Made by a program: the position numbers and the translations under genes. A model generated the notes under the pieces. The model did no database searches. It worked only from the letters and a program-made list of their open reading frames with translations, and was not told where the DNA came from. Below are positions 2,676 through 28,296 of a DNA stretch of 64,000 nt, piece after piece. Source of the stretch: a bacterium (GTDB lineage: Bacteria > Armatimonadota > Fimbriimonadia > Fimbriimonadales > Fimbriimonadaceae); assembly GCA_027483535.1 (NCBI GenBank), contig JAIXUN010000001.1, positions 289,432 through 353,431 of the forward strand, read 5' to 3'. How positions within the stretch are numbered: position 1 is the first letter of the stretch; each line of letters starts with the position of its first letter.

Positions 2676-2747
2676 ATGCCAAACCTAACCCCCGCTTCGC
2701 TCGCCGTTGAGCTTTCCGCACCTCTCTCTTTGGAGGGTGCGCGATGA
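2676..2747 (+). CDS. Possible 23-residue leader peptide overlapping GH51 start
   Basis: ATG at 2676 is preceded by a good Shine-Dalgarno (GAAGGTGA), and the 23-codon frame runs to a TGA that shares ATGA with the start of the arabinofuranosidase at 2744. The peptide reads MPNLTPASLAVELSAPLSLE plus GAR. The downstream gene's own Shine-Dalgarno (GGAGG) lies inside this frame. The layout suits translational coupling or a leader peptide. No homology is recognised and chance is possible. Confidence 0.35.
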   Translation: MPNLTPASLAVELSAPLSLEGAR

Positions 2748-5143
2748 GCTTCCTAGCCTCCCTCATTTTGTTATCGTCGGGTTCCGCCGGTGCGGGCTCT
2801 CTTGCCCCGAAGGTGGTCCCGATGCAGGCCACGGATACCGAGATCACGGTTCAGACCAAAACGCCCACGGTCAAGGTGAATCCGGACATGTACGGCATCT
2901 TCTTCGAAGAGATCAACCAAGCCGGAGAAGGCGGAGTCTACGCGGAATTGATTCGCGCTCGGGGGATGGAGGATGGCGACTCCAAGCGACTCCCAACGGG
3001 CTGGAGTGCGGATGTCTCTGGCGAAGGTAGCAGCGTCACCCTCGACTTCACCGACACTCCCGACCCGGCTCGCCCGGCATCTTTGAAGATCGTCCAGGGG
3101 GCTTCTGGTAAAGCGAGAGCGATCAACGACGGGTTCTGGGGCGTCCCGATCGAGAAAGGCAAGGATTATCGAATTGTCCTTTGGGCAAAGTCTCAGGGCA
3201 CTATGCAGCTTGCTCTTGAGTCCGCCTCCGGCCAAGCGATCAAGCCGGTGAAGGTAAAAGGCACGGGCGTCTGGCAGCGGTATGAAATTTCATGGGCGTC
3301 CACGGTTACGGATCCTAAGGCAAAATTCGTTCTCTCTCTCACCGAGCCGGGCACCGCAAACGTCGCATTCGCATCGATGATGCCGAAGGACACGTGGAAG
3401 GGCCGAAAGAACGGTCTTCGAAAGGACCTTGCCGGACTCATTGAAGGGTTCAAGCCCGGTTTTGTCCGATTCCCCGGCGGATGCTTCATCGAAGGGAACG
3501 ACTTGCCTCAAGCGTTCGATTGGAAGAAGACAATCGGTCCCGTCGAGACTCGGAAGCCGCACACCCGAAGCTTCTGGGGATATCCGGCGAGCAACGGCCT
3601 CGGTTTCCATGAGTACCTGCAGTGGTGTGAAGACCTCGGCGCGAAGGCGTTGTTCGTTGCCAACTGCGGAATGTCGCACACGCAAGTCGCGCCGATGAGC
3701 GAGATGAAGCGTTACGTGCAAGACACGTTGGACGCAATCGAGTATGCGAACGGTCCCATCAATTCCAAGTGGGGCGAAATAAGGGCTCAAAACGGACACC
3801 CCGAGCCGTTCGATCTGAAGTACATCCAGATAGGCAACGAGAACGGTGGTCCGGCTTACGACGAGCGGTATGCGCTGATCGGCAAAGCGATCAAAGATCG
3901 TTATCCCAATGTTGAGATCATCGCCAACGTGTGGGGCGGCGTTCCGAAATCTTACAAGCTCGAGATCATCGACGAGCACTACTACAGCAACCCGCCGTTC
4001 TTCTGGCGCAACGCCAACCGCTACGACAAGTACGATCGCAGCGGGCCGAAGATTTACGTCGGCGAGTATGCAGTTACTCGAGGATCGGGCACGGGCAACC
4101 TAGCCGCAGCGCTTTCGGAAGCGGCGTTCATGACGGGCATGGAGCGCAACGCAGACGTCGTTCATATGGCGTCTTATGCTCCGCTCTTTGTCAACGTAAA
4201 CAACCGACAGTGGAATCCGAACGCGATCGTGTTCGACAACCACCGGGTTTATGGGACGCCTTCTTTCTGGGTGCAATCCCTCTTTGCCAACCATCGACCG
4301 GATAAGGTTCTGAGCTATTCGGTGGTTTCTCCGAAAGCGGAGGTTCAGCCGCTTTCCGGAACCTTCGGAATTCAAACGTGGCGCACCGCTGCCGAGTTCA
4401 AAGACATTCAGATGGAGGCCGATGGGAAGGTCATCTTCAAGGCGGACGAACTGAAGAGCGATCGGCTGGATCTTCGCCGAGGGGCTTGGTCTCTGAACGA
4501 TGGAGTGCTTCGACAAACTTCCGAAGAGGAGAATCGACGCGCCATCGTGGAGAAGTTCTCCATTCCGCAAGCCAACAAGGTCACCCTCTCGCTGAAGGCG
4601 AAAAAGATCAAGGGCTACGAGGGCTTCATCATCATGATGGCCGTTGGCGAAGATCGCGAGCTTCAATGGAACCTCGGAGGCTGGGGGAACACCGTCCACG
4701 CCTTCCAGGTGGATGGTGAGCGCACTGGAAAGGGCGTCGAGGGTCGCATCGAAACCGACCGCTGGTACGACATCAAACTGGTTCGCGAAGGCAAAACGCT
4801 CAGTGCCTACCTAGACGGAAAGCTTATCGAGCAGATGGATGACGTCGCGGTTCCAAACTTCGCCGCTGTCGCCGGTCTCGACGAGAAGAAGAGCGAGATC
4901 ATCCTGAAGGTAGTGAACGGAAGCTCACAAGAGCGAGCCGTAAAGCTGAACTTTGAAGGGATGAAAGCCAACTCTAAGGCGTCCGGTTTTGTTCTTGGAG
5001 GGGGAGGCTTGATCGAGGAAAACTCGTTTGATCAACCCGCCAAGTTCGCTCCTCGTAAGTTCGATCTGCCTCAGATTCAGCCGAATTCGGTGGTGAAGTT
5101 CGCCCCGAACTCTCTGACCATTCTCCGTATCCCACGCAAGTAA
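2744..5143 (+). CDS. Secreted GH51 alpha-L-arabinofuranosidase with CBM-like domain
   Basis: 799 residues. Removes terminal alpha-L-arabinofuranose from arabinan, arabinoxylan or arabinogalactan side chains. A signal peptide covers about residues 1-20. A GH51 start ([16 protein letters not shown]) is followed by a beta-rich insertion at about 85-215 resembling CBM4/9. The catalytic barrel carries acid/base Glu366 in IGNEN and nucleophile Glu441 in YVGEY. A LamG-like insertion sits at about 545-710 before the C-terminal beta-sandwich. The gene is first of a unit with araA two bases downstream and araD overlapping that. The ATG at 2744 has GGAGG upstream. Its size and secretion distinguish it from the shorter GH51 enzymes at 14158 and 18020. 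Confidence 0.92.
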
Positions 5144-5145
5144 CC

Positions 5146-6627
5146 ATGCAAATCGCTCCTTCAGAAATCTGGTTCGTCACGGGTTCTCAGCACCTTTATG
5201 GTCCTGAGACCCTTCAGCAAGTGGCCGAGAACTCGCAAGCAATCGCGAAGGCTCTCAACGACTCCCTTCCGATTCCGGTCGTGTTCAAGCCCGTGCTGAC
5301 CGACCCCGCGGCGATCCGGACTCTCTGTCAGGAGGCGAATGCCGACCCCAAATGTGCGGGTTTGATCCTTTGGATGCACACCTTCTCGCCCGCGAAGATG
5401 TGGATCGGAGGACTTTCGAATCTGCGAAAGCCGTTCTGCCACCTGCACACCCAGTTCAATCGAGACCTGCCTTGGGACTCGATCGATATGGACTTCATGA
5501 ACCTGAATCAAGCGGCTCATGGAGACAGAGAGGCGGGATTCCTTCACTCTCGATTGCGCTTAGGTCGGAAGATTGTGGTCGGTCACTGGTCGGACCCCGA
5601 GGTCATTGCCCGCCTAGACGCTTGGGCCCGGGTCGCTCGGGGTTGGCTGGACCTTCAAGGGGCGAAGATCGCCCGGTTCGGTGACAACATGCGCGAGGTT
5701 GCCGTTACCGAGGGCGATAAAGTTGCGGCGGAGTCTCGGTTCGGGTTCTCGGTGAACGGATTTGGGATCGGCGACGTTCGGGCGGTGATCGATTCGGTGA
5801 GCGATCAAGAGGTCGCTTCCTTGGTGGATGAGTATCGCAGCCTGTACGCAGTGTCGGGCGATGAGGCTCAGATTCAAGCCGCTGCAAGACAGGAGATTGG
5901 GATTCGCCGCTTCCTCACCGAAGGTGGCTTCGTTGGATTCACCACCACTTTCGAGGACCTTCACGGGCTCAATCAGCTTCCTGGACTCGCCTCGCAAAGA
6001 CTCATGGCCGACGGGTTTGGGTTCGGCGCGGAAGGAGACTGGAAGACCTCCGCACTTCTTCGATTCTCGAAGGTGGTCACTCACGGTCTAGATGGCGGAA
6101 CGTCTTTCATGGAGGATTACACCTACCATCTCGATCCGGCGGATTCGTTGGTTCTGGGGGCCCACATGCTCGAGATTTGTCCCTCGATTGCCTCCGGGAA
6201 GCCTCGGCTCGAGGTGCATCCGCTCGGCATCGGTGGCAAAGCCGATCCGGCCCGACTTGTTTTCGATGCCCCTGCGGGCAACGCGCTCAATGCAACCCTT
6301 GTCGACCTGGGCGATCGCTTCCGACTTCTGGTTCACGAGGTTGAGGCCATCGAGCCAAAAGCGATGCCGAATCTTCCGGTTGCTCGAGCCCTCTGGCGAA
6401 GCAAGCCCGATTTCAAGACCGGTATCGGCGCTTGGATTCGCGCAGGCGGAGCGCACCATACGGTTTACAGCTACTCGCTCACGACGGAGCATCTGGAGGA
6501 CTTTGCCGAGATCGCCGGGATTGAAATTGCGGTGATCGATGAAGAGACTTCCCTTCGCGAGTTCCAAAATGAGCTTCGGCAGAACGATCTCTACTATCAT
6601 TTAGCGCAGGGAGTGAAAGGACACTAA
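5146..6627 (+). CDS. araA: L-arabinose isomerase
   Basis: 493 residues, full length for AraA. Converts L-arabinose to L-ribulose in the cytoplasm, using Mn2+. The N-terminus ([17 protein letters not shown]) is the typical AraA opening. Metal ligands matching the E. coli enzyme are Glu296 (FGAEGDWK), Glu323 (FMEDYTYH), His340 ([10 protein letters not shown]) and His438 in GGAHHTVYS. It begins two bases after the GH51 stop and its TAA overlaps the araD ATG by one base, so the three genes are probably cotranscribed. No araB kinase lies between araA and araD. Confidence 0.97.
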
Positions 6628-7295
6628 TGAGCGAATCTGCCGCGATGAAAGCCCTCCGAGAAGAGGTTTGCTATGCCAACAAGATGTTGCCCGTCGCTGG
6701 GCTGGTCACGATGCACTCGGGCAACGCGAGTGGATACGACCCAGATTCCGACCTGCTGGTGATCAAACCGAGCGGGATGGATTACGAAGCGATCACGCCC
6801 GAAAACCTTGTGGCGGTACGTGTTTCGACGGGCGAAGTGCTCACCGAAGGGATTCGACCGAGCGTCGATCTTCCTCACCACCTGTTCCTTTATCGGAATA
6901 TGCCTGACGTGCGGGGAGTGATTCATACGCACTCCAACTATGCAACCGCGTTTGCGGCGGTAGGCAGACCCGTTCCGCTTGTGCTCACTGCGATTGCGGA
7001 TGAGTTCGGCGCGGAGATTCCTTGCATGCCGTACACGGATAACGAGGGCGAGCACATCGGGGAAACGATCCTGAAGTTCAAGAATCGCGCTCCTTCGATA
7101 CTCCTTGGAAACCACGGTGTCTTCGCTTGGGGCAAGTCGCCGAAGTCGGCGCTGAAAGCAGCGGTGATGACCGAAGACGTTGCGAAGACGGTTTGGCTTG
7201 CCATGCAGATCGGAACTCCGAAGGAAATTCCGGCCGAGGAAGCGGAAAAGTGGTACGACCGTTATCACAATCGATACGGTCAGCCGGGTTGCTAA
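6627..7295 (+). CDS. araD: L-ribulose-5-phosphate 4-epimerase
   Basis: 222 residues, class II aldolase fold. Interconverts L-ribulose-5-phosphate and D-xylulose-5-phosphate, linking arabinose to the pentose phosphate pathway. Zinc ligands are visible in VIHTHSNYAT (two His) and GNHGVFAWG (third His). The phosphate-site motifs SGNASG near the N-terminus and KPSGMDY are present. The ATG shares a base with the araA stop (TAATG), a strong sign of coupling. A fuculose-phosphate aldolase is the main alternative in this fold, but the araA neighbour and the sequence favour AraD. Confidence 0.95.
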   Translation: MSESAAMKALREEVCYANKMLPVAGLVTMHSGNASGYDPDSDLLVIKPSGMDYEAITPENLVAVRVSTGEVLTEGIRPSVDLPHHLFLYRNMPDVRGVIHTHSNYATAFAAVGRPVPLVLTAIADEFGAEIPCMPYTDNEGEHIGETILKFKNRAPSILLGNHGVFAWGKSPKSALKAAVMTEDVAKTVWLAMQIGTPKEIPAEEAEKWYDRYHNRYGQPGC

Positions 7296-7315: not shown

Positions 7316-7342
7316 TTGAAATAGGTAGACCCGGTCTATAAT
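7316..7342 (+). promoter_or_regulatory. Promoter and palindromic operator of the ArsR-type regulator
   Basis: A perfect -10, TATAAT (7337-7342), has TTGAAA at 7316-7321 as -35 with a short 15-base spacer. The palindrome TAGACC-C-GGTCTA (7326-7338) occupies the spacer and overlaps the -10, an ideal place for a repressor to block RNA polymerase. A further half-site GGTCTA (7369-7374) touches the start codon of the regulator. Autoregulation is inferred. Confidence 0.6.
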
Positions 7343-7373
7343 CAATCTGGAATTCACGTTTCGGATCGGGTCT

Positions 7374-8339
7374 ATGCCTTTTCATATTCAAGAGCTGTCA
7401 GCAACCGAAAGCGTCGCCGTTTTCCGGGCTCTTGCAAGCGAACCGCGCGCCCGCATCATTGAACTGCTCGCCGATCGCGACATGAACATCAACGAGTTGA
7501 GCCAAGCTCTTGGGCTCACTCAGCCGAGCGTAACGAAGCACGTCCAGATTCTTGAAGAGGCAGGGCTTGTCCATAGCGACTACGTCGCGGGTCCGCAGGG
7601 CATGCAGAAGCGCTGCCGACGAACCCACGACCGGATTGTCGTCGAGATGGGGGCAAGCGGTCCCAAGCAGGATCTCGTTGCCGAAATTGAAGTGCCAATC
7701 GGCATGTACAACGACGCTCAGGCGGTGGCGACTTGCGGACTTGCGAGTAGAGAGCGGTTCATCGGTCACCTCGACAACCCCGTTTCGTTCTTCCTCCCCG
7801 AGCGCGCTCACGCCGAAATCCTTTGGTCCTCGGGAGGGTACATCGAATACGTTTTCACGAACTCGCTTCCCCTTCAAGCAAAGATCACCTCGGTGGATCT
7901 CGCACTGGAAATCTCATCTGAAGCCCCCGGCTACGATAACGATTACCCCTCTGACATCACGTTCTGGATCAACGGGATCGAGGTAGGAACATGGTGCTCC
8001 CCCGGCGATCCCGGTGGGACACGAGGTCGTCTCAACCCGCTTTGGTGGCACGACAACCTGAACCAAAATGGCTTCCTCAAGGTGTTCACCATCGACCACG
8101 AGGGCACCAGTATCGACGGGAACAAGATCTCAAACAAAACCATTGAGGACCTCGACTTCCGGCCTTGGGCAACGACCCGGGTTCGCATCGGGATCAAGCC
8201 CGATGCACCGCACCAAGGAGGGTTCACGCTCTTCGGAAAGGGCTTCGGAAACTACGAGCAGGATTTGGTGATGCGCTTCCGATATGTGATGCTCACCGAT
8301 ACCGGAATCGAGCTATCGTACGGCGCAGGTCGAACTTAG
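7374..8339 (+). CDS. ArsR-family regulator with large beta-rich C-terminal domain
   Basis: 321 residues. Residues about 8-75 form an ArsR-type winged helix (FRALASEPRARIIELLA, then LSQALGLTQPSVTKHVQILE as recognition region). Unlike the usual 100-residue metal-sensing ArsR proteins it has no obvious Cys/His metal site and carries about 230 extra residues, rich in beta strands and aromatic residues (ITFWINGIEVGTW, LNPLWWHDN, FTLFGKGFGNYEQD), likely a ligand-binding or oligomerisation domain. Similar proteins occur in Firmicutes near sugar genes, as far as I recall. Its place behind araD and before the arabinan operon suggests it senses arabinose or an oligosaccharide and controls this locus (inference). 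It has its own promoter with a palindrome over the -10. Confidence 0.75.
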   Translation: MPFHIQELSATESVAVFRALASEPRARIIELLADRDMNINELSQALGLTQPSVTKHVQILEEAGLVHSDYVAGPQGMQKRCRRTHDRIVVEMGASGPKQDLVAEIEVPIGMYNDAQAVATCGLASRERFIGHLDNPVSFFLPERAHAEILWSSGGYIEYVFTNSLPLQAKITSVDLALEISSEAPGYDNDYPSDITFWINGIEVGTWCSPGDPGGTRGRLNPLWWHDNLNQNGFLKVFTIDHEGTSIDGNKISNKTIEDLDFRPWATTRVRIGIKPDAPHQGGFTLFGKGFGNYEQDLVMRFRYVMLTDTGIELSYGAGRT

Positions 8340-8635
8340 GCCTGGGCTATTCCCAAGAAGGCATACTCACCCCGAAACGCCTTCGCGAGTCCAAACCCGC
8401 CCAACCTTTCCGATAAGAGGGTCTTCCGGCAGCCCATCGTAGAGATTTTTTACAATTTTTCCGATGAGTATTCACATTTCCCTATAACCTGTCATATAGT
8501 GTTATATGGAACGATCAGGAAATTAGGTGAACTCGTTCACACGTCCTGAAAGCAATCATTTCGACCACCGCGATTTATCGCCACGACCGGGCCACCAGAC
8601 CCGAAATGTTTGAATCCTCAAAGCAGAGGCTACTT
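8340..8635 (+). promoter_or_regulatory. Intergenic region with two inverted repeats before the prepilin gene
   Basis: This 296-base gap holds no gene that I can support. It has a T-rich stretch (about 8449-8461), possible -10 sequences (TATAAC at 8482), and two perfect inverted repeats: CATATA-GTGT-TATATG (8493-8508) and GTGAAC-TC-GTTCAC (8527-8540). The repeats look like operators for dimeric regulators, but the regulators are unknown. Confidence 0.4.
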
Positions 8636-9466
8636 ATGAACAACCGAAGAGCATTCACGCTCATTGAACTTCTCGTCGTTATCGCAATCATCGCGATACT
8701 TGCCGCAATCCTCTTCCCAGTTTTCGCTCAGGCGAAGATGGCGGCCAAGAAAGCTTCCGACCTTTCCAGCGTCAAGCAGATCACGCTCTCCGCAATCATG
8801 TATAGCGGCGACAACGACGACATGATCGCAGGTCAGAACAACGACCAAAACAACTTCCCCATTCCGTGGAATGCTGGGTCCGACGATCACTGGCCGCCGG
8901 TAGTACCCGGTGGAACGCCTTTGGGATACATGGACGTTCGCTACCCGCAGGTTTGGGCTCGCGACATTCAGCCGTACATGAAGAACCTGAAGCTCATGGA
9001 GAGCGCGGCGGCTCCTAAGGATCCGAATGCACGGTACGGATACACCAACCTCCAAGGCGGCGGAAACAACACCTGGATCATGAACGGTACGGTTCAACGA
9101 AAGTCGTTCACCGCCATCTCCGTTCCCGCTGAGATCGTCCTCTTCCAAAGTGCGCTCACCACAACCCGAGAATCGCTGACGCAGCCGACAAACTTCGATG
9201 GCGTAACCACCGCTTGCAACGGTATCGATCTCTCGTTCGCGGGCAACACGTTTGGTAAAGGCGGCAACTACGGCTGGGTCGATGGTCATGCGGGTTACAA
9301 GCCTCGAAACGGAGTCACCTTCCGCAACATGGGCGTCAGCGGAGTCGTTAACTCTCACGCACGTGGCGATGGACTTCCGAACACCACGTCTCTTACCGAT
9401 CCGGCGATCAACCCCAACTACTGGTACACGTGGGGCTCTGCGTGTAACGTCTCCAACATTCTGTAA
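8636..9466 (+). CDS. Type IV prepilin-like protein (H-X9-DG family)
   Basis: 276 residues from ATG 8636, which has AGAGG nine bases upstream; an in-frame ATG at 8606 lacks one. The N-terminus is a class III leader (MNNRRA then FTLIELLVVIAIIAILAAI), cleaved and methylated at the Phe by prepilin peptidase and used as the membrane helix. The SSVKQITLSAIMYSGDNDD region and a C-terminal NYGWVDGHAGYKP resemble the secreted prepilin-like proteins abundant in Armatimonadota; the His of the H-X9-DG motif is not in the usual place. The function is unknown, perhaps a surface or pseudopilus component. It sits between the arabinose regulator and the arabinan operon, so co-expression with polysaccharide use is possible. 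Confidence 0.85.
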   Translation: MNNRRAFTLIELLVVIAIIAILAAILFPVFAQAKMAAKKASDLSSVKQITLSAIMYSGDNDDMIAGQNNDQNNFPIPWNAGSDDHWPPVVPGGTPLGYMDVRYPQVWARDIQPYMKNLKLMESAAAPKDPNARYGYTNLQGGGNNTWIMNGTVQRKSFTAISVPAEIVLFQSALTTTRESLTQPTNFDGVTTACNGIDLSFAGNTFGKGGNYGWVDGHAGYKPRNGVTFRNMGVSGVVNSHARGDGLPNTTSLTDPAINPNYWYTWGSACNVSNIL

Positions 9467-9809: not shown

Positions 9810-11180
9810 GTGCTCACGTCAACGTTGACGATCGCCATGGCTACTCTCCTTTCAACTCCCGTTTCATCTGCCTCACTAGATTCCGCCGTTCGGAACAGCG
9901 AGTCGGATGGTTGGTCGGTTTTTCCGGGAGATGGAGCGGCATCAACCGAGAGCGGCCATGTCCACGATCCAACGATTGTGGAGATAGGCGGGAAGCGCTT
10001 TTGCTTCAGCACAAGCGGTGATGGGTTCACCGTTGTTCGAGAGAGCATTGATTGGGCACGCTGGAAGACCTTAGGGCCGATTTTCAAGATCGAGCCAAAA
10101 TGGTTGTCTGACCGATACGACCACCAGTCCATCTGGGCGCCAGATGTGCTGGTGCTCGGAAAGAAGGTTCGCGTTTACTACAGCAAGAGCAACTTCGGCA
10201 CCAACAAGTCGGTGATTGGGCTTGCGGAGAATGCGTCGTTCGATCCGAACAATCCGCTCGTGGGTTGGGTCGACAAAGGACTTGTCTACGAAACGAAACC
10301 CGGCGACGATCGGAACGCAATCGATGCAGAAACCGTCGTCGATGAGAACGGCCGTCATTGGATGTTCTTTGGGTCGTACTGGTCGGGCATCCATGTCGCA
10401 GAACTCGATCCCGTTTCAGGCTTACTGAAAAACCCAGCTAAGCCGCAAATCACCTGCGTTGCCAAAAACACGGGTGAGCGAGGCAATCCTCTCGAGGGCG
10501 CGGCAGTGCTTAAGAGAGGCGACTACTACTACCTGTTCGTTTCCTATGGACTCGCCGCGCAGGGGGTTCGAAGCACCTACCGAATCATGGTCGGGCGATC
10601 GAAAACCGCCGAGGGACCATTTTTGGATGCATCGGGTAAATCCATGGCAGATGGCGGATTTGTCAACGTGCTAAAAACTTCCCCGCCAATGATGTCGCCA
10701 GGGCACTGCGATGTTCTCACGCTAAACGATGGTCGCACGGTGATGCCGTACCACTTTTACGATGCTCGTAAAGCGTGGAACGGAGACAACTGGGGCCTCC
10801 CAACCCTGCAGGTCCGAGAGCTGATCTGGAACAAAGACGGTTGGCCGATTCCCGGACTGCCGTTGGAAGCGAGTCGACCCACGCGTGGCAGTTCGCTCGT
10901 TGGTCGGTGGATGCACCAGGTGGACTTTGGTCAACCCGAGACCATCGAGCTCACCGAAGATGGAGCGATTGTCGCCGGCGAGGAAGGCAAGAAACTCGCT
11001 CTTGGGACCTGGAAATCGGAAGGTTCGGAAGTTGTTTTGCGGTGGACAACCGATCGGCGGGGCCGGGCAATTGGTCCGTTCCAAGACCGGATTCAATCTG
11101 CCTATCAGAACGGCTACTACGCGGGTCGTACCGGGACGGGAGCGGTTGTTCGCGGTTACCGAGTCTCGGTGACGGAGTAG
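9810..11180 (+). CDS. GH43 endo-arabinanase-type glycoside hydrolase, secreted
   Basis: 456 residues starting at GTG, with a signal peptide (to about residue 22). Five-bladed propeller GH43 features: general base Asp53 (HVHDPTI), pKa-modulating Asp172 (AIDAET) and acid Glu229 (PLEGAAV). The motifs HQSIWAPDV and YYYLFVSYG match arabinan endo-1,5-alpha-L-arabinosidases. A C-terminal beta domain (about 360-450) matches that of GH43 subfamilies 4 and 5. It would cut the arabinan backbone to oligosaccharides for the transporter encoded directly downstream (four-base gap). Exo-acting arabinosidase cannot be excluded. Confidence 0.88.
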   Translation: MLTSTLTIAMATLLSTPVSSASLDSAVRNSESDGWSVFPGDGAASTESGHVHDPTIVEIGGKRFCFSTSGDGFTVVRESIDWARWKTLGPIFKIEPKWLSDRYDHQSIWAPDVLVLGKKVRVYYSKSNFGTNKSVIGLAENASFDPNNPLVGWVDKGLVYETKPGDDRNAIDAETVVDENGRHWMFFGSYWSGIHVAELDPVSGLLKNPAKPQITCVAKNTGERGNPLEGAAVLKRGDYYYLFVSYGLAAQGVRSTYRIMVGRSKTAEGPFLDASGKSMADGGFVNVLKTSPPMMSPGHCDVLTLNDGRTVMPYHFYDARKAWNGDNWGLPTLQVRELIWNKDGWPIPGLPLEASRPTRGSSLVGRWMHQVDFGQPETIELTEDGAIVAGEEGKKLALGTWKSEGSEVVLRWTTDRRGRAIGPFQDRIQSAYQNGYYAGRTGTGAVVRGYRVSVTE

Positions 11181-11184
11181 AACC

Positions 11185-12459
11185 TTGAACCCTCGTCTCT
11201 CGCTTGGACTCCTGATTGGCCTCTGTGTGGGGCTCGGGGTCGTTCGCGGAGACTTTCAGTGTCTCGGTCCAAGTAAGGCTCGCAAAGTCGAGATCAGCTT
11301 CTGGAACGGGTTCACCGGACCAGACGGCCGGACCATGCTCGGCATGATTCGAAGGTTCAATCAGGCGAACCCAGGGGTGCTCATTTCCATGCAGCGCATG
11401 GATTGGGCGACCTACTACAACAAGCTGATGGTCGCGGCGGTGGATGGTCGCGGACCGGAGATTTTCGTCATTCACGCCAGCACACTGCCTCGGATGCAGA
11501 AAGCGGGATTCGTGGCGGATGTATCCAATCTGTTTGGGCCAAGCACCCTTCCAAGAGAGGACTTCGACCCCTACGTTCTGGATCAGGTGACTTACGGGGA
11601 TCGGATTGTTGGGGTCCCGCTGGATATTCACCCTCAGGGGCTTTACGCCAACAAAGATGCCCTCAAGAAGGCAGGCTTCGACCGGTTGCCTGTGAACCGA
11701 GAAGAGTTTGTTCGTCTTGCCTCACTCCTTAGGAAGGATGTGGATGGCGACAAACGTCCCGACGAATGGGGTTTTGCCCTCACCCTTTGGCGAAACAATT
11801 TTCAGAGTTTGATGCCCCAGTTCGGCGGTCGATTCTTGGACGAAAACGGCAATGCCGACCTCGATCATCCCGGGAACATTCGCGCATTGGAGTTCCTAGG
11901 GAGCTTGGGCAAAGATAAGTTGGTGCCGCCACCAGAGAACGGTCTGGGCTGGGTCGGCTATCGACAAAAGAAGGTCGCGATGGTGTTCGACGGCGTCTAC
12001 ATGCTGGGCGACCTGAAGCGGTTGAACGATCTGAACTATCTTGGCGGACCGCTACCTCAGCTCGGTGATCGGCCCGGCACCTTGGCGGATTCGCACGTGC
12101 TTTGCGTGCGAGAGGGTCTGCCGAACGAGAAGCGAGAAGCGGTCGAGAAGTTCATTCAGTTTCTCTCCGAGAACAGCATCGAATGGGCAGACGCCGGGCA
12201 GGTCCCAGCGAGGAGGTCGGTGCGGGCCACTCCCGAGTTTCAGGCGATGCCCGTGCAGTACGGGTTCTCCAAGCAGATTCCGTACATGATCTATCCGCCT
12301 CGAATCAACGTGCTCTTCGAGTTCACCCTTGAAATCGACCTGGCGGTAGAGAAGGTGATGCGCGGACGATCGACCGCGGCAGAGGCGCTGAAGATCGCCG
12401 ATCAAAACGCTCAAAAGTTCATTGACCGCGACCGAGCCGAACGGGTGGTGAAACCGTGA
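11185..12459 (+). CDS. ABC sugar transporter substrate-binding protein (CUT1 type)
   Basis: 424 residues starting at TTG, with GGAG eight bases upstream in the end of the GH43 gene. An N-terminal hydrophobic signal (SLGLLIGLCVGLGVV) is followed by the family 1 binding-protein start (VEISFWNGFTGPDGRTMLGMI). It resembles MalE/UgpB-type proteins for oligosaccharides. Operon position behind GH43 and ahead of two permeases indicates uptake of arabino-oligosaccharides (inference). Its stop overlaps the next start (GTGA), so translation is coupled. Confidence 0.9.
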   Translation: MNPRLSLGLLIGLCVGLGVVRGDFQCLGPSKARKVEISFWNGFTGPDGRTMLGMIRRFNQANPGVLISMQRMDWATYYNKLMVAAVDGRGPEIFVIHASTLPRMQKAGFVADVSNLFGPSTLPREDFDPYVLDQVTYGDRIVGVPLDIHPQGLYANKDALKKAGFDRLPVNREEFVRLASLLRKDVDGDKRPDEWGFALTLWRNNFQSLMPQFGGRFLDENGNADLDHPGNIRALEFLGSLGKDKLVPPPENGLGWVGYRQKKVAMVFDGVYMLGDLKRLNDLNYLGGPLPQLGDRPGTLADSHVLCVREGLPNEKREAVEKFIQFLSENSIEWADAGQVPARRSVRATPEFQAMPVQYGFSKQIPYMIYPPRINVLFEFTLEIDLAVEKVMRGRSTAAEALKIADQNAQKFIDRDRAERVVKP

Positions 12460-13331
12460 CCTACCTGCAGGAGCGAAAGCTCACGGGATGGCTCTACTTG
12501 GCTCCGTTTGTGGTTGCCTTCACCACATTCGTGATCGTGCCGATCGGGGTCTCACTATGGCTCTCCGTCATGCGTTTCGACCTGACCTCGCGCGAGTCGG
12601 TCTCGTTCGTCGGGCTTCAAAACTTCCAAGATGCTCTGAAAGACGACTATTTCTGGCAGGCCATGAAAGCGACGCTCTGGTTCGCGGTTCTGATGATCCC
12701 GAGCATGCTGATACTGGCGCTCTCCCTGGCCCTTGGCATGCACGCCATGAACCGGGGTCGGAACGTGGTTCGGGCAATGCTGTTCCTTCCGGGCATGTTC
12801 AACGTGGCTGTCGCGGGCATTTTGTGGCAGTGGTTCTACAACGGCGAGTTCGGTCTTTTCAACTTTTGGCTCAAGGGAGCGGGCCTTGCACCGCAGCCGT
12901 GGCTTTCCGATCGCGGATTTGCGATGCCCAGCATCGTGCTCATGAGCCTCTGGTGGAGCGTCGGCGGAACTTCGGTGGTGATCCTCGCCGCTCTGCAGCA
13001 GATTCCCAAACAGATTTTCGAAGCGGCGACACTCGACGGAGCCGCCTACTTCCCTCTTCTTTCGAAGATCACCCTTCCACTGCTTCGGCCCGTGCTGATG
13101 TTCGTGGTCGTCACAAATACCATCGGGGCGTTCCAGGTCTTTGGTCAGCCGTTCTTGCTCACCCGGGGCGGACCGGAACTTTCCACTCGCGGCGTAGTGC
13201 AGTACATCTACGAAACTGCATTCAACAACTATCGAATGGGCTACGGAGCGGCGATGAGCTGGCTTCTGTTCTTGGTGATCGCCTTGTTTGCCCTGGTTCA
13301 GTACCGATTCCTTAGGCGAGGTCACCAATGA
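12456..13331 (+). CDS. ABC sugar transporter permease (MalF/UgpA type)
   Basis: 291 residues from GTG, overlapping the binding-protein stop by four bases. Six membrane segments are visible, starting at WLYLAPFVVAFTTFVIVPIGV. The EAA loop (EAATLDGAAYFPLLSKITLP), which contacts the ATPase, is near residue 195. Its stop overlaps the start of the partner permease by ATGA. With the MalG-type partner it forms the channel of a CUT1 importer for oligosaccharides, probably arabinan fragments. Confidence 0.92.
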   Translation: MTYLQERKLTGWLYLAPFVVAFTTFVIVPIGVSLWLSVMRFDLTSRESVSFVGLQNFQDALKDDYFWQAMKATLWFAVLMIPSMLILALSLALGMHAMNRGRNVVRAMLFLPGMFNVAVAGILWQWFYNGEFGLFNFWLKGAGLAPQPWLSDRGFAMPSIVLMSLWWSVGGTSVVILAALQQIPKQIFEAATLDGAAYFPLLSKITLPLLRPVLMFVVVTNTIGAFQVFGQPFLLTRGGPELSTRGVVQYIYETAFNNYRMGYGAAMSWLLFLVIALFALVQYRFLRRGHQ

Positions 13332-14152
13332 GAAGAGCGGGGCGCATTTTCCTGGTCGCGTTCATGTTCGCGATTGCGGCGATCTTCCTTGCGCCTGTGG
13401 CGTTAATGGCGTTCACGTCTTTCAAGCCGGAGTCTGAGGTCTTGAATCCAGCCTCGGCGATCCCGAAAGTTTGGACGCTCTCCAACTATCTCCACATTCT
13501 AGGATGGGTGGAAGAGGCGCCGTTTGGCAGGTGGCTTCTGAACAGCTTCTTCGTCTCGACCTCGGTCACGGTTCTGGTCGTGGGCATAAGTTCGATGGCG
13601 GCTTACGGAATCACCCGGTTAAAGGCTCCCGGTGGGAACGCCTTCCTTGGTGTGGTTGTGGCTTCGATGATGATTCCAGCCCAGCTATTTCTGGTTCCTT
13701 TGTATCTGATGCTGAGCAAGTTTCACTGGCTAGATACGCCGCTTGCGCTCATTGTCCCCGCGACCGCTGGGGGTTGGGGCGTTTTCATGCTCAGCCAGTT
13801 CATGCGGGCCGTTCCAGAGGCAATCGAGGAGGCGGCCATTATCGACGGATGCTCGACGGGGGAGGTTTTCTTCAACGTCACGCTGCCCCTCTGCGCCCCG
13901 AGCATGGCGACCCTGGGCGTCTTCACGTTTATCGGGTCGTGGAACGACTTTCTTGGACCGCTTGTCTTTATGGACTCGGTCCGCAACTACACTCTCCCGG
14001 TGGGCATCGCGCTCTACCAGACCTCGTATTACACGGAATATGGCCTCACTCTTGCGACAAGCGTGATGGCGACCCTTCCGTTGATTCTCGTTTTCTTGGC
14101 GTTCCAGCGCCAAATCGTTGAAAGCATGGCCTCAACCGGCCTTAAGGACTAA
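13328..14152 (+). CDS. ABC sugar transporter permease (MalG/UgpE type)
   Basis: 274 residues, ATG overlapping the previous stop by four bases. Six membrane helices; EAA motif EEAAIIDGCSTGEVFFNVTL near residue 170. C-terminal hydrophobic segment followed by a short tail typical of MalG. It pairs with the 12456 permease. No ATP-binding subunit gene follows; the next gene, five bases on, is an intracellular arabinofuranosidase. The importer must borrow an ATPase encoded elsewhere, as is common for MsmK-type systems. Confidence 0.92.
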   Translation: MRRAGRIFLVAFMFAIAAIFLAPVALMAFTSFKPESEVLNPASAIPKVWTLSNYLHILGWVEEAPFGRWLLNSFFVSTSVTVLVVGISSMAAYGITRLKAPGGNAFLGVVVASMMIPAQLFLVPLYLMLSKFHWLDTPLALIVPATAGGWGVFMLSQFMRAVPEAIEEAAIIDGCSTGEVFFNVTLPLCAPSMATLGVFTFIGSWNDFLGPLVFMDSVRNYTLPVGIALYQTSYYTEYGLTLATSVMATLPLILVFLAFQRQIVESMASTGLKD

Positions 14153-14157
14153 CCCAC

Positions 14158-15657
14158 ATGCACAAAACCACCCTTCATTTGCACACCGCGTTTACCGTTG
14201 ATCGAGTTGACCCCAGAATCTTTGGCGGGTTCCTTGAGCATATGGGTCGAGCCGTTAACGACGGTGTTTACCGACCCCAGAGCGCCCATGCAGACGACCT
14301 CGGGTTCCGAAAGGACGTTCAAGCGGCGCTCAAGCGATTGGACTTCACGGCGATGCGCTACCCCGGTGGAAACTTCGTCTCGGGTTATCACTGGCTGGAC
14401 GGTGTGGGTCCCCGCGAAAACCGACCCAAGGTGCGCGATCTGGCATGGCAGAGCATCGAGACCAACGAAGTGGGCACCAACGAGTTCATGCAGCTTTCCA
14501 ATCGGATGGGGTGGACACCGATGATGGCGGTGAACTTAGGGACAGGCACCCCGGAAGAGGCTCGGAATTGGCTGGAGTACACCAATATCGAAGGAGGATC
14601 GAAGTGGGCTGATCTTCGCCGCGAGCATGGATTCGAGAAGCCGTGGGACATCAAGCTCTGGTGCCTCGGAAACGAAATGGATGGTCACTGGCAAATCGGT
14701 CACGTTCCGGCGGAGAACTATGCGATCAGCGCCCAGCAGACCGCTCGGATGATGCGCATGTGCGATCCGGACATCGAGTTGGTCGTGTGCGGTTCCTGCA
14801 CAACAGGCCTTCCGACGTACCTGGAGTGGGATCGCAAGGTGTTGGAGCACTGTCGAGACGAGGTCGATTATTTGAGCCTTCACCGATACGTTGGCAATCA
14901 CAATGACGACACGGTGGACTATCTGGCGGTCGGCAACTCGATCGACGATCAGATCGAGGCGACCGACGCCGTCTGCCACAGCGTTTGGAAGACCAAGAAG
15001 ACGCGCAAGAAAGTGAAGCTGAGCTTCGACGAGTGGAACGTCTGGTACCGAGCAAACAAGGCCGAGCACGTAGACGGTAAGGGCAAGTTCGCTCCGCCTC
15101 TGCTCGAGGAGGTTTACAACCTCGAAGATGCGCTCGTTGCGGCTGGATTCCTCAACTCGTTCATCCGACACGCGGATTCGGTGAAGATCGCCAACCTCGC
15201 ACAGATCGTCAACGTGATCGCCCCCATCTTCACCCGAGGCGACGAGATGATTCTTCAGACCATCTTCTATCCGATCGAGATGATGTCCAAGCGGCGAGAG
15301 GGCATCTCTCTGCAGGTGCAGGTCGAGGGTCCGTCCTACACGTCTGCGTCTTACGGCGAAGTGAGTTTCTTGGATACCAGCGCCATCTTGAACGGAGACC
15401 GGCTGAGCGTATTCTTCGTCAACCGCGACCTCGAGAAGCCCATGGAGGTTCAGGTGAAGATCGGCGATGCTTCGGTTACGGAGTTGGTTGACGCTGAATT
15501 TTTGGCGGGAACCGATCCGAAGGCTCACAACACCTTCGATGCCCCTCACCGGGTTTACAGTTGTGTCCACGAGGACGTGACGATTAGCAACGGAGTTGCA
15601 ACAATCTCACTTCCTCCGATGTGTGTGTATGCGGGAACGTTTAAGATAGAACGATAA
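14158..15657 (+). CDS. Intracellular GH51 alpha-L-arabinofuranosidase
   Basis: 499 residues, no signal peptide, the usual length of cytoplasmic GH51 enzymes such as Geobacillus AbfA. Acid/base Glu173 is in CLGNEMDG and nucleophile Glu292 in SFDEWNVW, close to positions 175 and 294 of AbfA. Other family signatures are MRYPGGNFVSGYHWLDGVGP and SLHRYVGN. It follows the MalG-type permease by five bases, so it likely splits imported arabino-oligosaccharides to free L-arabinose for AraA. The GH127 gene begins five bases downstream. Confidence 0.95.
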   Translation: MHKTTLHLHTAFTVDRVDPRIFGGFLEHMGRAVNDGVYRPQSAHADDLGFRKDVQAALKRLDFTAMRYPGGNFVSGYHWLDGVGPRENRPKVRDLAWQSIETNEVGTNEFMQLSNRMGWTPMMAVNLGTGTPEEARNWLEYTNIEGGSKWADLRREHGFEKPWDIKLWCLGNEMDGHWQIGHVPAENYAISAQQTARMMRMCDPDIELVVCGSCTTGLPTYLEWDRKVLEHCRDEVDYLSLHRYVGNHNDDTVDYLAVGNSIDDQIEATDAVCHSVWKTKKTRKKVKLSFDEWNVWYRANKAEHVDGKGKFAPPLLEEVYNLEDALVAAGFLNSFIRHADSVKIANLAQIVNVIAPIFTRGDEMILQTIFYPIEMMSKRREGISLQVQVEGPSYTSASYGEVSFLDTSAILNGDRLSVFFVNRDLEKPMEVQVKIGDASVTELVDAEFLAGTDPKAHNTFDAPHRVYSCVHEDVTISNGVATISLPPMCVYAGTFKIER

Positions 15658-15662
15658 ACCCC

Positions 15663-18011
15663 ATGTCTATTCCTTTCGCCGGAACGCTCTCTCTGGTCCT
15701 GTCGATCTGTTCGATCGGCGGGACCTTTTCATTTTCAGATCCCGATCCCATGAAAAGCGTTGAATTCAAGTCAAAGCCCGTTCCGCTGAGTTCGGTGCGG
15801 CTCCTCCCGAGTCGATTCAAAGAAGCACAGGAAGCGAACGGTAAGTATCTGTTGATGCTCGACCCCTACCGACTCCTTCACGGCTTCTACAAAAACGCGG
15901 GACTTCCCACGAAGGGCGAGAACTACGGTGGTTGGGAAACAATGGGGATCGCCGGGCACTCGCTTGGGCACTATCTCTCGGGTCTCGCGCTTCACTATGC
16001 CGCTACCGGGGATGTGCGGTTCAAAGAGAAGGCCGAAATCATTGTCAAAGAGTTGACCCTTTGTCAGGCGAATCGCTCGGACGGATACATTGGCGCGATC
16101 CCCGATGGAGATCGAGTTTGGAACGAAATACGGAAGGGTGAGATTCGCAGCAAGGGCTTCGACCTAAACGGTCTTTGGGTGCCCTGGTACACGCAGCATA
16201 AGGTCTACGCCGGACTCGTCGACGCCTACAAACTTGCGGGGATCGAAAGCGCCCTGCCCGTGGCAACCAAACTTGGCGATTGGGCCATTGAGGTCACTTC
16301 TAACCTAGACGCTCAGAAGTGGCAAACCATGCTTGCTTGCGAGCATGGCGGCATGAACGAGGTCCTAGCCGATCTTTACGAGATCACAGGCGAAAAGAAA
16401 TACCTAGACCTCGCGAGGAAGTTCCACCACGATGCGGTTCTCAAGCCGCTCGAAGAAGGCGTGGACAAGTTGGCGGGGCTGCACTCGAACACCCAGATTC
16501 CGAAGCTCATCGGTCTTGCCAAGCTTTACGAACTCCAGGGCGAATCCTCCGACCGAAAGGGGAGCGAGTTCTTCTGGGACAGGATTGTCAACCACCGCAC
16601 GTTTTCGATGGGAGGCAATAGCAACGGAGAGCACCTCACGACGGCGGGTCGCCTTTCCGACCAACTTTCAGCAAGCTCGGCCGAGACGTGCAACACGTAC
16701 AACATGCTCAAGCTCACCAAGCACCTGCACACTTGGGACGGCGACGCTGAGCGGTACGACTTTTACGAGCGGGCTCTTTACAACCACATCCTGGCGTCTC
16801 AGCGACCTACGGATGCGATGAAGACCTACTTCGTTCCGTTGCAGCCGCTTGCGAAGCGAAAGTTCAGCAATCCGTACAACGACTTCACCTGCTGCCATGG
16901 AACCGGAATGGAGAACCACGCCAAGTACGGCGAGGCGATCTACACCGAACGGGAGAACGAACTGCAAGTGAACCTGTACATCCCTTCGCAGATCGTGGAC
17001 CCGAAAGAAGAGTTTGCCATTACGCAGACGGGCGATTACGAGCGAGACCAGAAAGTGACGATCAACGTGGATCGTGCCCCGAGCGAGGCTAGGTCACTCG
17101 CGTTGCGAGTCCCGTTCTGGACCGTCGGCGAGCCCAAGGCGACCCTCAACGGCAAGGCGGTATCTCTGAAGAAGGAAAAGGACGGCTACGCTCGGATCTC
17201 GCGAACGTTCAAAGCGAGCGATGAACTGAAGGTTCAGTTCCCGGCCGAGATCCGTTTCGAGCCAACCCCGGACAACCCCAAAAAGACGTCGGTTCTTTAT
17301 GGCCCAGTCGTGTTGGTGGGTGTTCAAGCAGAGGAGGGCGAGGTTCCGGCTCCGGTATTCGTTCCCAAGGAAGGCGCCGATCTCAAGAAGGCGTTCCAGA
17401 GAGTAAAAGGCGAAGGACTCCGTTTTGTTTCCAAGAGCCTCATCAAGCCAAAGGACCTGACTCTTGTACCCTTCTATGAGGCCTACGACAAGGTCTACAC
17501 CACCTACTTCGACGTCTTCACTGACGACGAGTGGAAGGTGAAGGAAGCGGAATATCGAAAGGTGATCGCAGCCAGGGAAGCTTTGGAGAAAGCAACCACC
17601 GACCTGTTCCGCGTAGGCGAAATGCAGCCGGAACGCGATCATGACCTGGAAGGCGAGCGAACGGAAGCGGGCGAACACTCGGGTCGCAAGTGGCGGCACG
17701 CGATGGATGGTTGGTTCTCGTTCCGAATGAAAGTGGACTCAAAACTCGAGCACACGTTCATCTGCGACTACTGGTCCGGCGACTTTGGTCGCGAGTTTGA
17801 AATCCTTGTCGACGGCGTGCTTCTCTCTGATGAGAAGAGACAGCGACCGCAAAATCCCGGATTCGTTCAAATCAACTATCCGCTCCCCCTTTCGATGACT
17901 CAAGGCAAGCAAAGCGTGGTCATCATGTTTCGTGCGAAGAACCGATCCATCGCCGGGGGCCTATTCGGCGCCCGAATGGTGCGGAACGATCTCCTTCCGA
18001 AGAATCCCTGA
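15663..18011 (+). CDS. Secreted GH127 beta-L-arabinofuranosidase
   Basis: 782 residues with a signal peptide, longer than the 658-residue HypBA1 of Bifidobacterium longum because of a C-terminal beta domain (about 640-780) akin to those called DUF4986/DUF6805. GH127 enzymes use a Zn-bound cysteine nucleophile; the ligands are visible as Glu341-Thr-Cys343 (AETCN) and Cys410-Cys411 ([13 protein letters not shown]), with HypBA1 equivalents E338, C340, C417, C418. The N-terminal part matches DUF1680 ([18 protein letters not shown]). It releases beta-L-arabinofuranose, for example from hydroxyproline-linked arabinosides of plant extensins or from pectin side chains. Flanked five and eight bases away by GH51 genes, so in the same operon. 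Confidence 0.9.
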
Positions 18012-18019
18012 ACAAACTC

Positions 18020-19486
18020 ATGAGCACACTATCCGTTAAGTTCAACCCGAAATCCGACGCACCAACCGTCAATCCAAACGTTTACGGTCACTTTGCCGAA
18101 CACCTTGGGCGGTGCATTTACGAAGGCTTTTGGGTGGGTGAGGATTCTGAAATCCCGAATACCCGTGGCATTCGCAACGACGTGGTCGCTGCTCTTCGTG
18201 AGCTCGACATTCCGGTCCTTCGGTGGCCGGGCGGGTGCTTTGCGGACGAGTATCACTGGAAAGATGGCGTGGGCCCGAGAGAGAATCGACCGTCCATTCT
18301 GAACACTCACTGGGGCCGAGTGGTGGAGAACAACCACTTTGGAACGCATGAGTTCTTCGACCTCTGCGAGTTGCTCGACACCGCCCCTTATGTCTGCGGA
18401 AACGTAGGCAGCGGCACCGTACAAGAGATGATGGAGTGGGTGGAGTACATCTCCTCCGACTCGCAATCGCCCATGGCGAACTGGCGGCGTGCCAACGGTC
18501 GAGAAGAGCCGTGGAAGCTTCCCTTCTTTGGCGTAGGGAACGAGAGCTGGGGATGCGGTGGCAACATGCGCCCGGAGTACTACGCCGACGAGTATCGACG
18601 CTACAACTGCTTCGTCAAGAACTACTCTGGCAACAAGGCTTATCGGATTGCCTGCGGCGCGAACTCGGGCGACCTTCACTGGACCGAGGTGATGATGGAG
18701 CGAGCCAAGGACCACATGGACGGTCTTTCGCTGCACTATTACGCGGTGCCGAACGGCTGGCCGCCCAACGGTTCGGCGATCGACTTCAACACCAAGCAAT
18801 GGGCAGAAGTGATGAAGGCGGCTCTGCACATGGGCACCCTTCTGGAGCAGCACACCGCCATCATGGACAAGTACGACCCGGAGAAGAAGGTCGGCCTGAT
18901 CGTTGATGAGTGGGGCACTTGGTTCGAGAGCGAGCCCGGATCGACTCCCGGCTTCTTGTACCAACAGAACTCGATGCGAGATGCGGTTCTGGCGGCGATT
19001 CACTTCCACCTTTTCCACGGATACGCAGATCGGATCCACATGGCAAACATCGCGCAGACGGTGAACGTTCTGCAGGCGATGATCCTTACCGACGGTGCGA
19101 GGATGATCAAGACCCCCACCTTCTGGGTGTTCGAGATGTTCAAGCATCACCAAGGTGGGCAGGTGGTTGAACTTGAGGTTGAGATTCCGAAGATCACCGT
19201 CGAGGGAATCGAATTGCCTGCGATCTCCATTTCGGCGACGCAGAAAGATGGGGTTCTGACCACTTCCATCGCGAACCTTGATCCGGAGAACGACCGCGTT
19301 CTCGAGCTGCCTATCGGCGAAGTTTCCGAGGTGCGAGTCCTCACCGGAGCGACCATGACGGCGCACAACACCTTCGAAGAACCGGAGAACGTGAAGCCTA
19401 TCGCGGGTAGCTATGAATCGGTGAACGGCGTTGTGCAAGTCACGTTGCCGAAATACTCGATCGTTACGGTGAGTTCAAAGCATTAA
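18020..19486 (+). CDS. GH51 alpha-L-arabinofuranosidase, second intracellular copy
   Basis: 488 residues without signal peptide. Acid/base Glu175 in GVGNESWGC and nucleophile Glu297 in LIVDEWGTW. It belongs to a different GH51 branch from the 14158 enzyme: it has [20 protein letters not shown] and LHYYAVP in place of the MRYPGGN and LHRYVGN forms. The two may split tasks by linkage or substrate (arabinan versus arabinoxylan). Last gene of the operon, eight bases after GH127; the next gene, 41 bases away, has its own -10-like box. Confidence 0.95.
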
Positions 19487-26499: not shown

Positions 26500-28296
26500 G
26501 TGAGTCGAGCGGCGTTTGCGCGATATTGGTGGTTTCCGATTGGGTTCCTCATTCTCAGTTGCGGACGTCCGGAAGTACCTGCGGATTGGTCGGCAGAGAA
26601 AATTGGTGAAGAACTGAATTCGGCTCTCGACAAGGGAGACATGGCTCGCGCCGAACTATTGATCGACGCAGGTTTGCGCCTCAAACTGGCTGAGAAACCC
26701 ACCGAAAAGGAGCTCAAACTCGACTTTCAAGAAGCAATCAAGAAGAATCGATTTGCGCGCGTTCAGCAACTCCTAAAAGCGGGGGCCGATCCTAACAAGC
26801 CGTTCGTCAAACGTCTTCCGGGGATCGAGCTAAGCACGACACCCCTTGGAGTTGCGGTGGTTTCCGTACCGATGACCGAGCTATTGCTGAGAAATGGTGC
26901 GAATCTAGAACAGATTATCAACGCCGAACTAGGGACGCCACTAAGCTGTGCCTCATCATTTGGTAACAGCCGAACCGCCCTCTGGCTTCTTCACCGAAAG
27001 GCAAACGTGAAGGCGGCAGGTCCGCGGGGCAAAACCATACTCCACGGGGCCGTGGCCAATCCCAGGACCAACGTGGTCGAAATCCTTTTGGACAAGGGTT
27101 TGGATATCGAGGCACGAACACCCAAGCGTCCAGAGGTTCCTGAAGGGAACGAAAGCCAGGAACCTACCCAACTGATCGCTTGGCGTGAGGAAGGCGCGAC
27201 GCCACTGTTGCTCGCTGCTGGAAACCCACGGGTGGCTGAGCTCCTTCTGAAGCGAGGGGCAAACCGGAATGTGGTCGACGAGGATGGCGCGGGGCTACTT
27301 CACTACGCGGTTGCAAGAGGTTTTCCCGAATCGCTCTCGAGCATGCTAAAGCTAGGGTTGGATGTCAACAGACCGACAAAAATCGGCGCGACACCCCTTC
27401 ACGTCGCGGCTGCAAATGCAGGATGGTATGACACGAAAGATATTGAACTTCTGCTAGCAGCGGGCGCCAATCGGGAAGCGCGCGATGCGAGGGGCAGAAC
27501 ACCGGCGGACCTCTTCCGTCGCCTGTTCATGGACCGCCTAAAGGACCTCGCACTCACGAGGACTGGCGTTGAAATAGCGATGGGCGAAGAGATTGCGCGC
27601 GCCAACAATTTGCTCAAACTGCTTGATCCAAAAGCCAAACCGATTTCTGTCCCCCTACTCAAAGGGAAAGACGGTTGGCAGATCTACGACCCAATAAAGC
27701 TTTGGGATGAGGCGGAAGTCGGGCCGAGCCCAGTGATTCGTCGCAAGGTTACGGGCAGAGACAACAGGGCGGTCCTGAAACTATCTCTCGACGGTGGTTG
27801 GACAGGAGCACCGGTTGAGATTAGGAATTTATGGCTTTTGGGAAACGGAACGAAAGAAGGGCCCTTCAAACTCGGCGCCGGGGAATCTCGCGAGATAACT
27901 TTCCCGATGAATGTATTCGCTTACGGCGGTGCAGTCAGTTTTGAATGGCGCGTGGGCCGGAACAGCGGCAGATACCAAAGGGAACGCTACGCATGGCCGC
28001 CTCGGGTGTCTGAAGTCCTTCGCGGGACGCAGGTTTATGCGGTATCGAACGATCCGTTTGGCCGCCCAGTGCACTTCCGAGTCATCAAGCTGATTAGGAA
28101 CGACAAGGAAGTTGCCCCCGAACGAAAGGAGGGAGTGTTCGGCGATTCTGGACTTTCCGTACACAGCCTTGACGAGACCGGGACCGTCGAGCTTGAGGTG
28201 TGGCTTGAAGAAGAGCGTCAGGCTCGTAAGAGGAAGGGGAAGACAGGGGATATCGTGCGATGGTCTTCTGGAAACCACTTCCTACCTGCCAGATGA
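26500..28296 (+). CDS. Ankyrin-repeat lipoprotein with C-terminal beta domain (family copy 1)
   Basis: 598 residues from GTG. Signal peptide with lipobox (LILSC, Cys at about 23), so outer-facing and lipid anchored. A helical opener (AEKIGEELNSALDKGDMARAELLIDAGL) leads into about seven ankyrin repeats (to about residue 345: TPLLLAAGNPRVAELLLKRGAN, ATPLHVAAANAG). From about 385 the protein matches copies 33275 and 39529: DGWQIYDP, RRKVTG, a GESREITFP turn and DPFGRPVHFRVIKL. No known domain is recognised in that part. TAACAT ends seven bases before the GTG. Confidence 0.75.
   Translation: MSRAAFARYWWFPIGFLILSCGRPEVPADWSAEKIGEELNSALDKGDMARAELLIDAGLRLKLAEKPTEKELKLDFQEAIKKNRFARVQQLLKAGADPNKPFVKRLPGIELSTTPLGVAVVSVPMTELLLRNGANLEQIINAELGTPLSCASSFGNSRTALWLLHRKANVKAAGPRGKTILHGAVANPRTNVVEILLDKGLDIEARTPKRPEVPEGNESQEPTQLIAWREEGATPLLLAAGNPRVAELLLKRGANRNVVDEDGAGLLHYAVARGFPESLSSMLKLGLDVNRPTKIGATPLHVAAANAGWYDTKDIELLLAAGANREARDARGRTPADLFRRLFMDRLKDLALTRTGVEIAMGEEIARANNLLKLLDPKAKPISVPLLKGKDGWQIYDPIKLWDEAEVGPSPVIRRKVTGRDNRAVLKLSLDGGWTGAPVEIRNLWLLGNGTKEGPFKLGAGESREITFPMNVFAYGGAVSFEWRVGRNSGRYQRERYAWPPRVSEVLRGTQVYAVSNDPFGRPVHFRVIKLIRNDKEVAPERKEGVFGDSGLSVHSLDETGTVELEVWLEEERQARKRKGKTGDIVRWSSGNHFLPAR

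Follow-up and report, generated by a model that had tools for sequence, protein, structure and literature searches.

An ArsR-type regulator with a predicted CBM-like sensor domain and a candidate operator at an arabinan locus of the Armatimonadota

Arabinose and arabinan genes are regulated by AraR, of the GntR family, and by AraC, and a predicted ArsR-family regulator of such genes has also been described. Rodionov and colleagues predicted in 2021 that an ArsR-family protein, ArbA, regulates abfA in Caldicellulosiruptor, and the part of their report that deals with ArbA describes it as the first factor from the ArsR family in carbohydrate use (PMC8579813). The protein of Caldicellulosiruptor bescii (ArbA/ArbR) is presented there as a repressor of an arabinoside-degrading gene, encoded divergently from a GH51 gene; in that part of the report ArbA is known solely from regulon prediction, and no mention is made of a C-terminal domain, of its fold or of other phyla (PMC8579813). 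Genes annotated as ArsR-family also occur in the ara cluster of Lactobacillus rossiae (PMC4855831) and, in Geobacillus sp. 56T3, within an arabinan cluster (PMC4428132, Table 7). The gene order in the latter cluster (ArsR, solute-binding protein, two permeases, GH43, GH2) is, at the level of annotation, that of the loci outside the Armatimonadota described below.

The locus analysed here lies in a 64,000-nucleotide stretch of a Fimbriimonadaceae genome (Armatimonadota), the whole of which we call the window. All of its arabinose genes are on the forward strand. The upstream group consists of a GH51-like alpha-L-arabinofuranosidase gene (2744-5143; Pfam ASD1_dom and Alpha-L-AF_C), a probable member of the regulon, followed by araA for L-arabinose isomerase (5146-6627; NCBIfam PRK02929, 781.9 bits) and araD for L-ribulose-5-phosphate 4-epimerase (6627-7295; NCBIfam PRK06557, 257.9 bits against a cut-off of 251). 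The regulator gene follows at 7374-8339, so that it stands, as the earlier note had placed it, between araD and an arabinan operon. That operon runs from a prepilin-like gene (8606-9466; TIGR02532 and PF07963; order conserved) through genes for a GH43 enzyme (9810-11180; PF04616, 5.1e-38), a sugar ABC transporter substrate-binding protein (11185-12459; PF13416), two sugar ABC transporter permeases (12456-14152, as 12456-13331 and 13328-14152; PF00528), a GH51/ArfA-like arabinofuranosidase (14158-15657; NF051901, 594.6 bits, and PF06964) and a GH127 beta-L-arabinofuranosidase (15663-18011; PF07944, 1.8e-122) to a second GH51-type arabinofuranosidase (18020-19486; PF06964, 2.2e-46). The prepilin-like protein that opens the operon carries an N-methylation motif, and most Armatimonadota loci have it at the corresponding position. 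A gene for an M60 (enhancin-like) peptidase of secreted type precedes the arabinose genes, at 362-2545.

The regulator (7374-8339, +) is an open reading frame of 321 amino acids with a Pfam HTH_5 match, about three times the usual size of an ArsR protein, as had been remarked earlier. Its DNA-binding head is indeed an ArsR-like winged helix: HTH_5 (PF01022) matches residues 25-68 with an E-value of 1.5e-10 (41.2 bits, cut-off 22), and in structure comparisons of the AlphaFold model residues 8-89 (7395-7640, +) match CzrA, CadC, SrnR and other ArsR chains at Z 12-13 (for CzrA, Z 12.8 with an rmsd of 2.0 over 78 residues). This fold is common to the regulator and the ArsR/SmtB metalloregulators (CzrA, CadC, SmtB), from which it differs in its extra domain of about 210 amino acids and in having neither the alpha-5 helix nor a canonical metal site. 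Inspection of the regulator alignments by eye found no canonical ArsR metal motif (alpha-3 Cys, alpha-5 His/Asp), no Cys pair was seen in the recognition region in alignments of 64 and 79 sequences, and the AlphaFold model has no alpha-5, which is the customary dimer helix of ArsR proteins. The earlier remark that a visible metal site is lacking is borne out by these observations. Two other cysteines, Cys81 at the end of the wing (7614-7616) and Cys121 in the sensor domain (7734-7736), are invariant in both the 64-row and the 79-row alignments.

The score of the regulator against the NCBIfam model HTH_metalloreg (NF033788) is a near miss, 54.2 bits where the curated cut-off is 55, and all 79 homologues match that model with E-values of up to 0.001. 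Members of this group, which score near the metalloregulator cut-off and have no family name of their own, are therefore easily taken for arsenic or zinc sensors. We regard it as highly improbable that the protein is an ordinary metal or redox ArsR regulator that sits in a sugar operon by chance: the near-miss score and the two invariant cysteines speak for such a protein, but the canonical metal-site motif and the modelled alpha-5 helix are both missing, and the CBM-like domain and the glycan-gene neighbours across many phyla (see below) point elsewhere. The metal-sensor reading was ruled out on these grounds of motif, fold and context.

The C-terminal sensor domain, residues 97-308 (7662-8297, +), is predicted by an AlphaFold model and structure searches to be a beta-sandwich of the CBM6/35/36 type. 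Modelling with 79 natural sequences as input gave a pLDDT of 88 for the whole regulator, and of 96.2 with a pTM of 0.91 for residues 97-308 alone. The domain was modelled and structure-searched by itself; the match list of the whole protein was filled by the helix-turn-helix. The top structural match of the predicted model is a CBM6 module with neoagarohexaose (2cdp, Z 9.8), and it is followed by the CBM35 modules 2w1w (Z 9.5), 2w47 and 4qb2 (Z 9.4-9.5) and the CBM36 module 7ay3 (Z 9.2), in alignments with an rmsd of about 3 A over roughly 120 residues. The beta-sandwich fold is thus common to the domain and these modules, but the domain is some 80 residues longer, shares only 8-13% identity with them and has no Pfam match. 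It also differs from them in being joined to a DNA-binding domain rather than to an enzyme, and no export signal was seen; the CBM fold is otherwise known from secreted enzymes. No Pfam family scored above cut-off on the domain and none of the 79 members has a Pfam CBM match, no NCBIfam or Pfam model covering the C-terminal part or the full-length regulator was found, and sequence relatives in the PDB were likewise not found.

The model supports the assignment of the domain to the CBM-like beta-sandwich class, as a predicted fold, and is consistent with the sugar-sensor role suggested in the earlier note, which had proposed a structure prediction of this domain. A shared CBM fold is no proof of sugar binding, which we infer with more caution than the fold class because the best score, a Z of about 9.8, is moderate, and Cry toxin domain III and BcsB, which are also beta-sandwiches, come within about one Z unit of the CBM matches. 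The invariant positions, 34 among the 64 Armatimonadota sequences and 28 among the 79 sequences from many phyla, are mostly C-terminal. In the cross-phylum alignments those of the sensor core include Asp134, Trp151, Tyr159, Glu179, Glu183, Asp194, Asp212 and Asp248, and such invariant residues (Trp, Tyr, Asp, Glu) would suit a sugar site.

The regulator has matches in 50 of 291 Armatimonadota genomes, several of which hold paralogues; most of the matches are full-length, at 41-77% identity. Among the matches listed, full-length homologues occur in the Armatimonadota, Firmicutes, Chloroflexi, Spirochaetes and Deinococcota, the same architecture being present in Paenibacillus, Cohnella, Clostridium, Halanaerobium, Chloroflexi, Treponema, relatives of Truepera and others; those outside the Armatimonadota, with one genome taken per species, are 41-47% identical over nearly their full length. 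In the clade of the window the regulator gene is usually followed by the prepilin-like gene, GH43, the solute-binding protein gene, two permease genes and GH51, in that order (Pfam identities of the neighbours were checked for representatives), and araA, araB or an arabinofuranosidase gene is often divergent at these orthologous loci. Among 61 loci in other phyla, GH43, GH51 or AraA lies within about 8 kb at 33, and a GH2-type enzyme is near the regulator at 29. A gene for GH43, GH51, AraA or a sugar ABC transporter occurs at 51 of the 61 and GH2 alone at 4 more, as raw counts. Homologues are thus found beside sugar genes at 55 of the 61 loci, GH2 counted, rather than consistently beside non-sugar genes as the earlier note had named as grounds against its idea. 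Synteny, the neighbours in other phyla and the CBM-like domain together argue for a sugar-linked, non-metal ArsR-type regulator of arabinose and arabinan genes, and the neighbours in other phyla widen the original idea of an arabinose switch to arabinosides or plant glycans.

Like ArbA, the regulator combines an ArsR helix-turn-helix with a link to arabinofuranosidase genes. Members of the present family in Caldicoprobacter and in another Clostridia genome (L145 and L132) are divergent from GH51, and since ArbA is likewise so placed, it may, by analogy, be a member of this family. The contrast that the earlier note drew with the usual arabinose regulators stands in part: the regulator is of a sugar-linked ArsR type, and its DNA-binding and sensor domains differ from those of AraR and AraC, but its distinctness is weakened by the ArsR-family precedent of ArbA as reported in the part cited (PMC8579813). 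The open-access literature yielded no description of the C-terminal domain, a search in which a relative from a subscription journal may have been missed; the sensor domain, the breadth of the family and the operator candidate discussed below appear undescribed.

An operator had been proposed in the earlier note immediately before the regulator, at the palindrome TAGACCCGGTCTA (TAGACC-C-GGTCTA, 7326-7338). Its location was correctly given, with the last two bases overlapping the TATAAT at 7337-7342, and so was that of a further GGTCTA half-site at 7369-7374, which ends on the A of the ATG. These perfect 6-bp arms touching the -10, together with the extra half-site at the start codon, would suit an autoregulatory operator in the species of the window only. 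Against this, of dinucleotide-shuffled versions of the 78 bp upstream, 14.7% contain an inverted repeat with perfect 6-bp arms and a spacer no longer than 10, the genome holds one exact copy, and copies with one mismatch number 7, compared with 13 for a reversed-pattern control. The palindrome is absent upstream of all homologues compared, including those that are 74-77% identical, and is unrelated to the conserved motif described next. We therefore consider autoregulation through it quite improbable, and TAGACC-N-GGTCTA was dropped as a regulon motif.

A conserved motif was reached by another route. Dyad counts upstream of the regulators gave ATATTC-N8-GAATAT, which in one subclade lies in the region separating the regulator from divergent ara genes, and a scan with it led to a block between regulator and operon with the consensus TATTCMCATTTGGCTAT. 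The copy in the window, GTATTCACATTTCCCTATAA (8468-8487, +), lies before the arabinan operon. With a matrix built from 14 orthologous sites, the window site being left out, 8468-8487 scores 19.3 bits and ranks first of about 128,000 positions, the runner-up scoring 10.4 bits. A degenerate form of the pattern, allowing up to two mismatches, has a single match in the 3.77-Mb genome, again at 8468-8487, and the site is conserved at the same position in 17 orthologous loci. Against it counts that the right half of the window copy, CCCTAT instead of GGCTAT, is the most atypical. The operon promoter, as read from the sequence (8471-8500, +), would consist of TTCACA at 8471-8476, an 18-bp spacer and TATAGT at 8495-8500, and the candidate operator spans this -35 and most of the spacer. 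A -10-like hexamer (TATNAT) follows the block at a fixed offset, its T/A/T being kept in 14 of 18 loci. On sequence grounds 8468-8487 is a better operator candidate than TAGACC-C-GGTCTA.

Across the 85 family genomes the operator consensus, with at most one mismatch, has 12 matches, compared with 1 for a control. All 12 are in genomes that carry the regulator, which is present in 30 of the 85 (hypergeometric p 7e-7); this co-occurrence is partly confounded because motif and regulator travel in one operon. Eleven of the matches precede arabinan genes. Two of these are unlinked to the regulator, one before a prepilin-SBP-permease-GH51 operon (G090) and one before a lone GH51 gene (G095), and in a further genome (G094) a foreign gene separates the regulator from the operon and the motif remains with the operon. 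The twelfth match, with one mismatch (L194:7169, G084:C11), lies before genes for a LacI-family regulator and a prepilin-like protein.

The 20-bp block might instead be the site of another factor, or a special promoter element, with the ArsR-type protein acting elsewhere. The fixed offset to the -10-like hexamer fits such a reading, as does the LacI-family gene behind one match, and the pairing of protein and site was itself reached by inference. We nevertheless consider it rather unlikely: the regulator is the sole transcription-factor gene found consistently at these loci, the matches are confined to genomes that have it, and symmetric copies of the motif lie in the intergenic region that adjoins its gene.

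Two weaker operator-like sites in the window are offered as suggestions only of further targets. One, GTATTCTAGGTTCATTATAT (2604-2623, +), lies upstream of GH51-araA-araD (shuffle p 0.010 with the directional matrix and 0.05 with the symmetric one). The other, GAATTCCAGATTGATTATAG (7336-7355, minus strand), covers the -10 of the regulator gene itself (directional matrix, shuffle p 0.026); it is not conserved in the closest orthologues, and no convincing site was seen before their regulator. Upstream of homologues outside the Armatimonadota the clade matrix gave 5 sites at 8 bits where 4.2 were expected, and because there is no enrichment in other phyla the operator is claimed for the Fimbriimonadaceae-type clade only. 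Upstream of other Armatimonadota regulators TAT-N4-ATA occurs in 17 of 36 cases, compared with 2 expected, and GCTAT-N4-ATAGC is perhaps their own operator. The longer form lies over the -10, roughly 30-60 bp ahead of the start of the regulator, at L052, L055, L057, L058, L087 and others.

The best-supported model is that the protein is a one-component transcription factor in which a cytoplasmic CBM6/35/36-like beta-sandwich would act as sugar sensor for the ArsR winged helix. It probably represses arabinan uptake and degradation from 8468-8487 and is released by an arabinose-containing sugar bound to the CBM-like domain. Ligand-free regulator would bind the imperfect palindrome TATTC-MCATTTGG-CTAT (8468-8487) and block the -35 and spacer, so that the prepilin-like gene, GH43, the ABC importer, GH51, GH127 and the second GH51 stay off. 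An arabinose-containing sugar on the C-terminal domain would then cause the protein to leave the DNA. Free arabinose would be a less plausible ligand than an arabino-oligosaccharide taken up through the CUT1 importer, and the weaker sites may bring GH51-araA-araD and the regulator itself under the same control.

The main rival to repression is activation from the same site, in which the same regulator would sit at a weak -35 and recruit polymerase when sugar-bound. Most loci have a poor -35 (TTCCCA), and the distance between the site and the -10 is fixed, as would suit an activator, and HlyU, an ArsR-type protein, is named an activator in database match names. Most characterised ArsR-family proteins are repressors, however, and the TTCACA and 18-bp spacing of the window permit an ordinary promoter. 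Activation is thus possible but unlikely. Repression also fits the overlap of the operator with the -35, as proposed for ArbA/ArbR, whose sites overlap promoters and are called repressor sites in the part of the report that treats them (PMC8579813).

A broader proposal, which we put forward more tentatively and at a little under even chances, is that the regulator represents a widespread, unnamed family of one-component factors, with an intracellular CBM-fold sensor on an ArsR winged helix, that recognise arabino-oligosaccharides or related glycans. If so, many loci for plant polysaccharides in Paenibacillus, Clostridia, Chloroflexi, Treponema and Armatimonadota would have a regulator assigned to them whose ligand domain is readable. 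The fold would allow a direct test of how a CBM-like domain might gate DNA binding, and the regulator would be a natural part for an arabinan biosensor.

In one Armatimonadota family (L087, L093, L052 and L054) tandem paralogues of the regulator flank GH43, and the second of the pair is near a gene for an Asp-box (BNR) repeat protein. Elsewhere in the window, at 26500-28296, 33275-35089 and 39529-41367, lie the genes of three paralogues of about 600 amino acids, the first two of which are ankyrin-repeat proteins.
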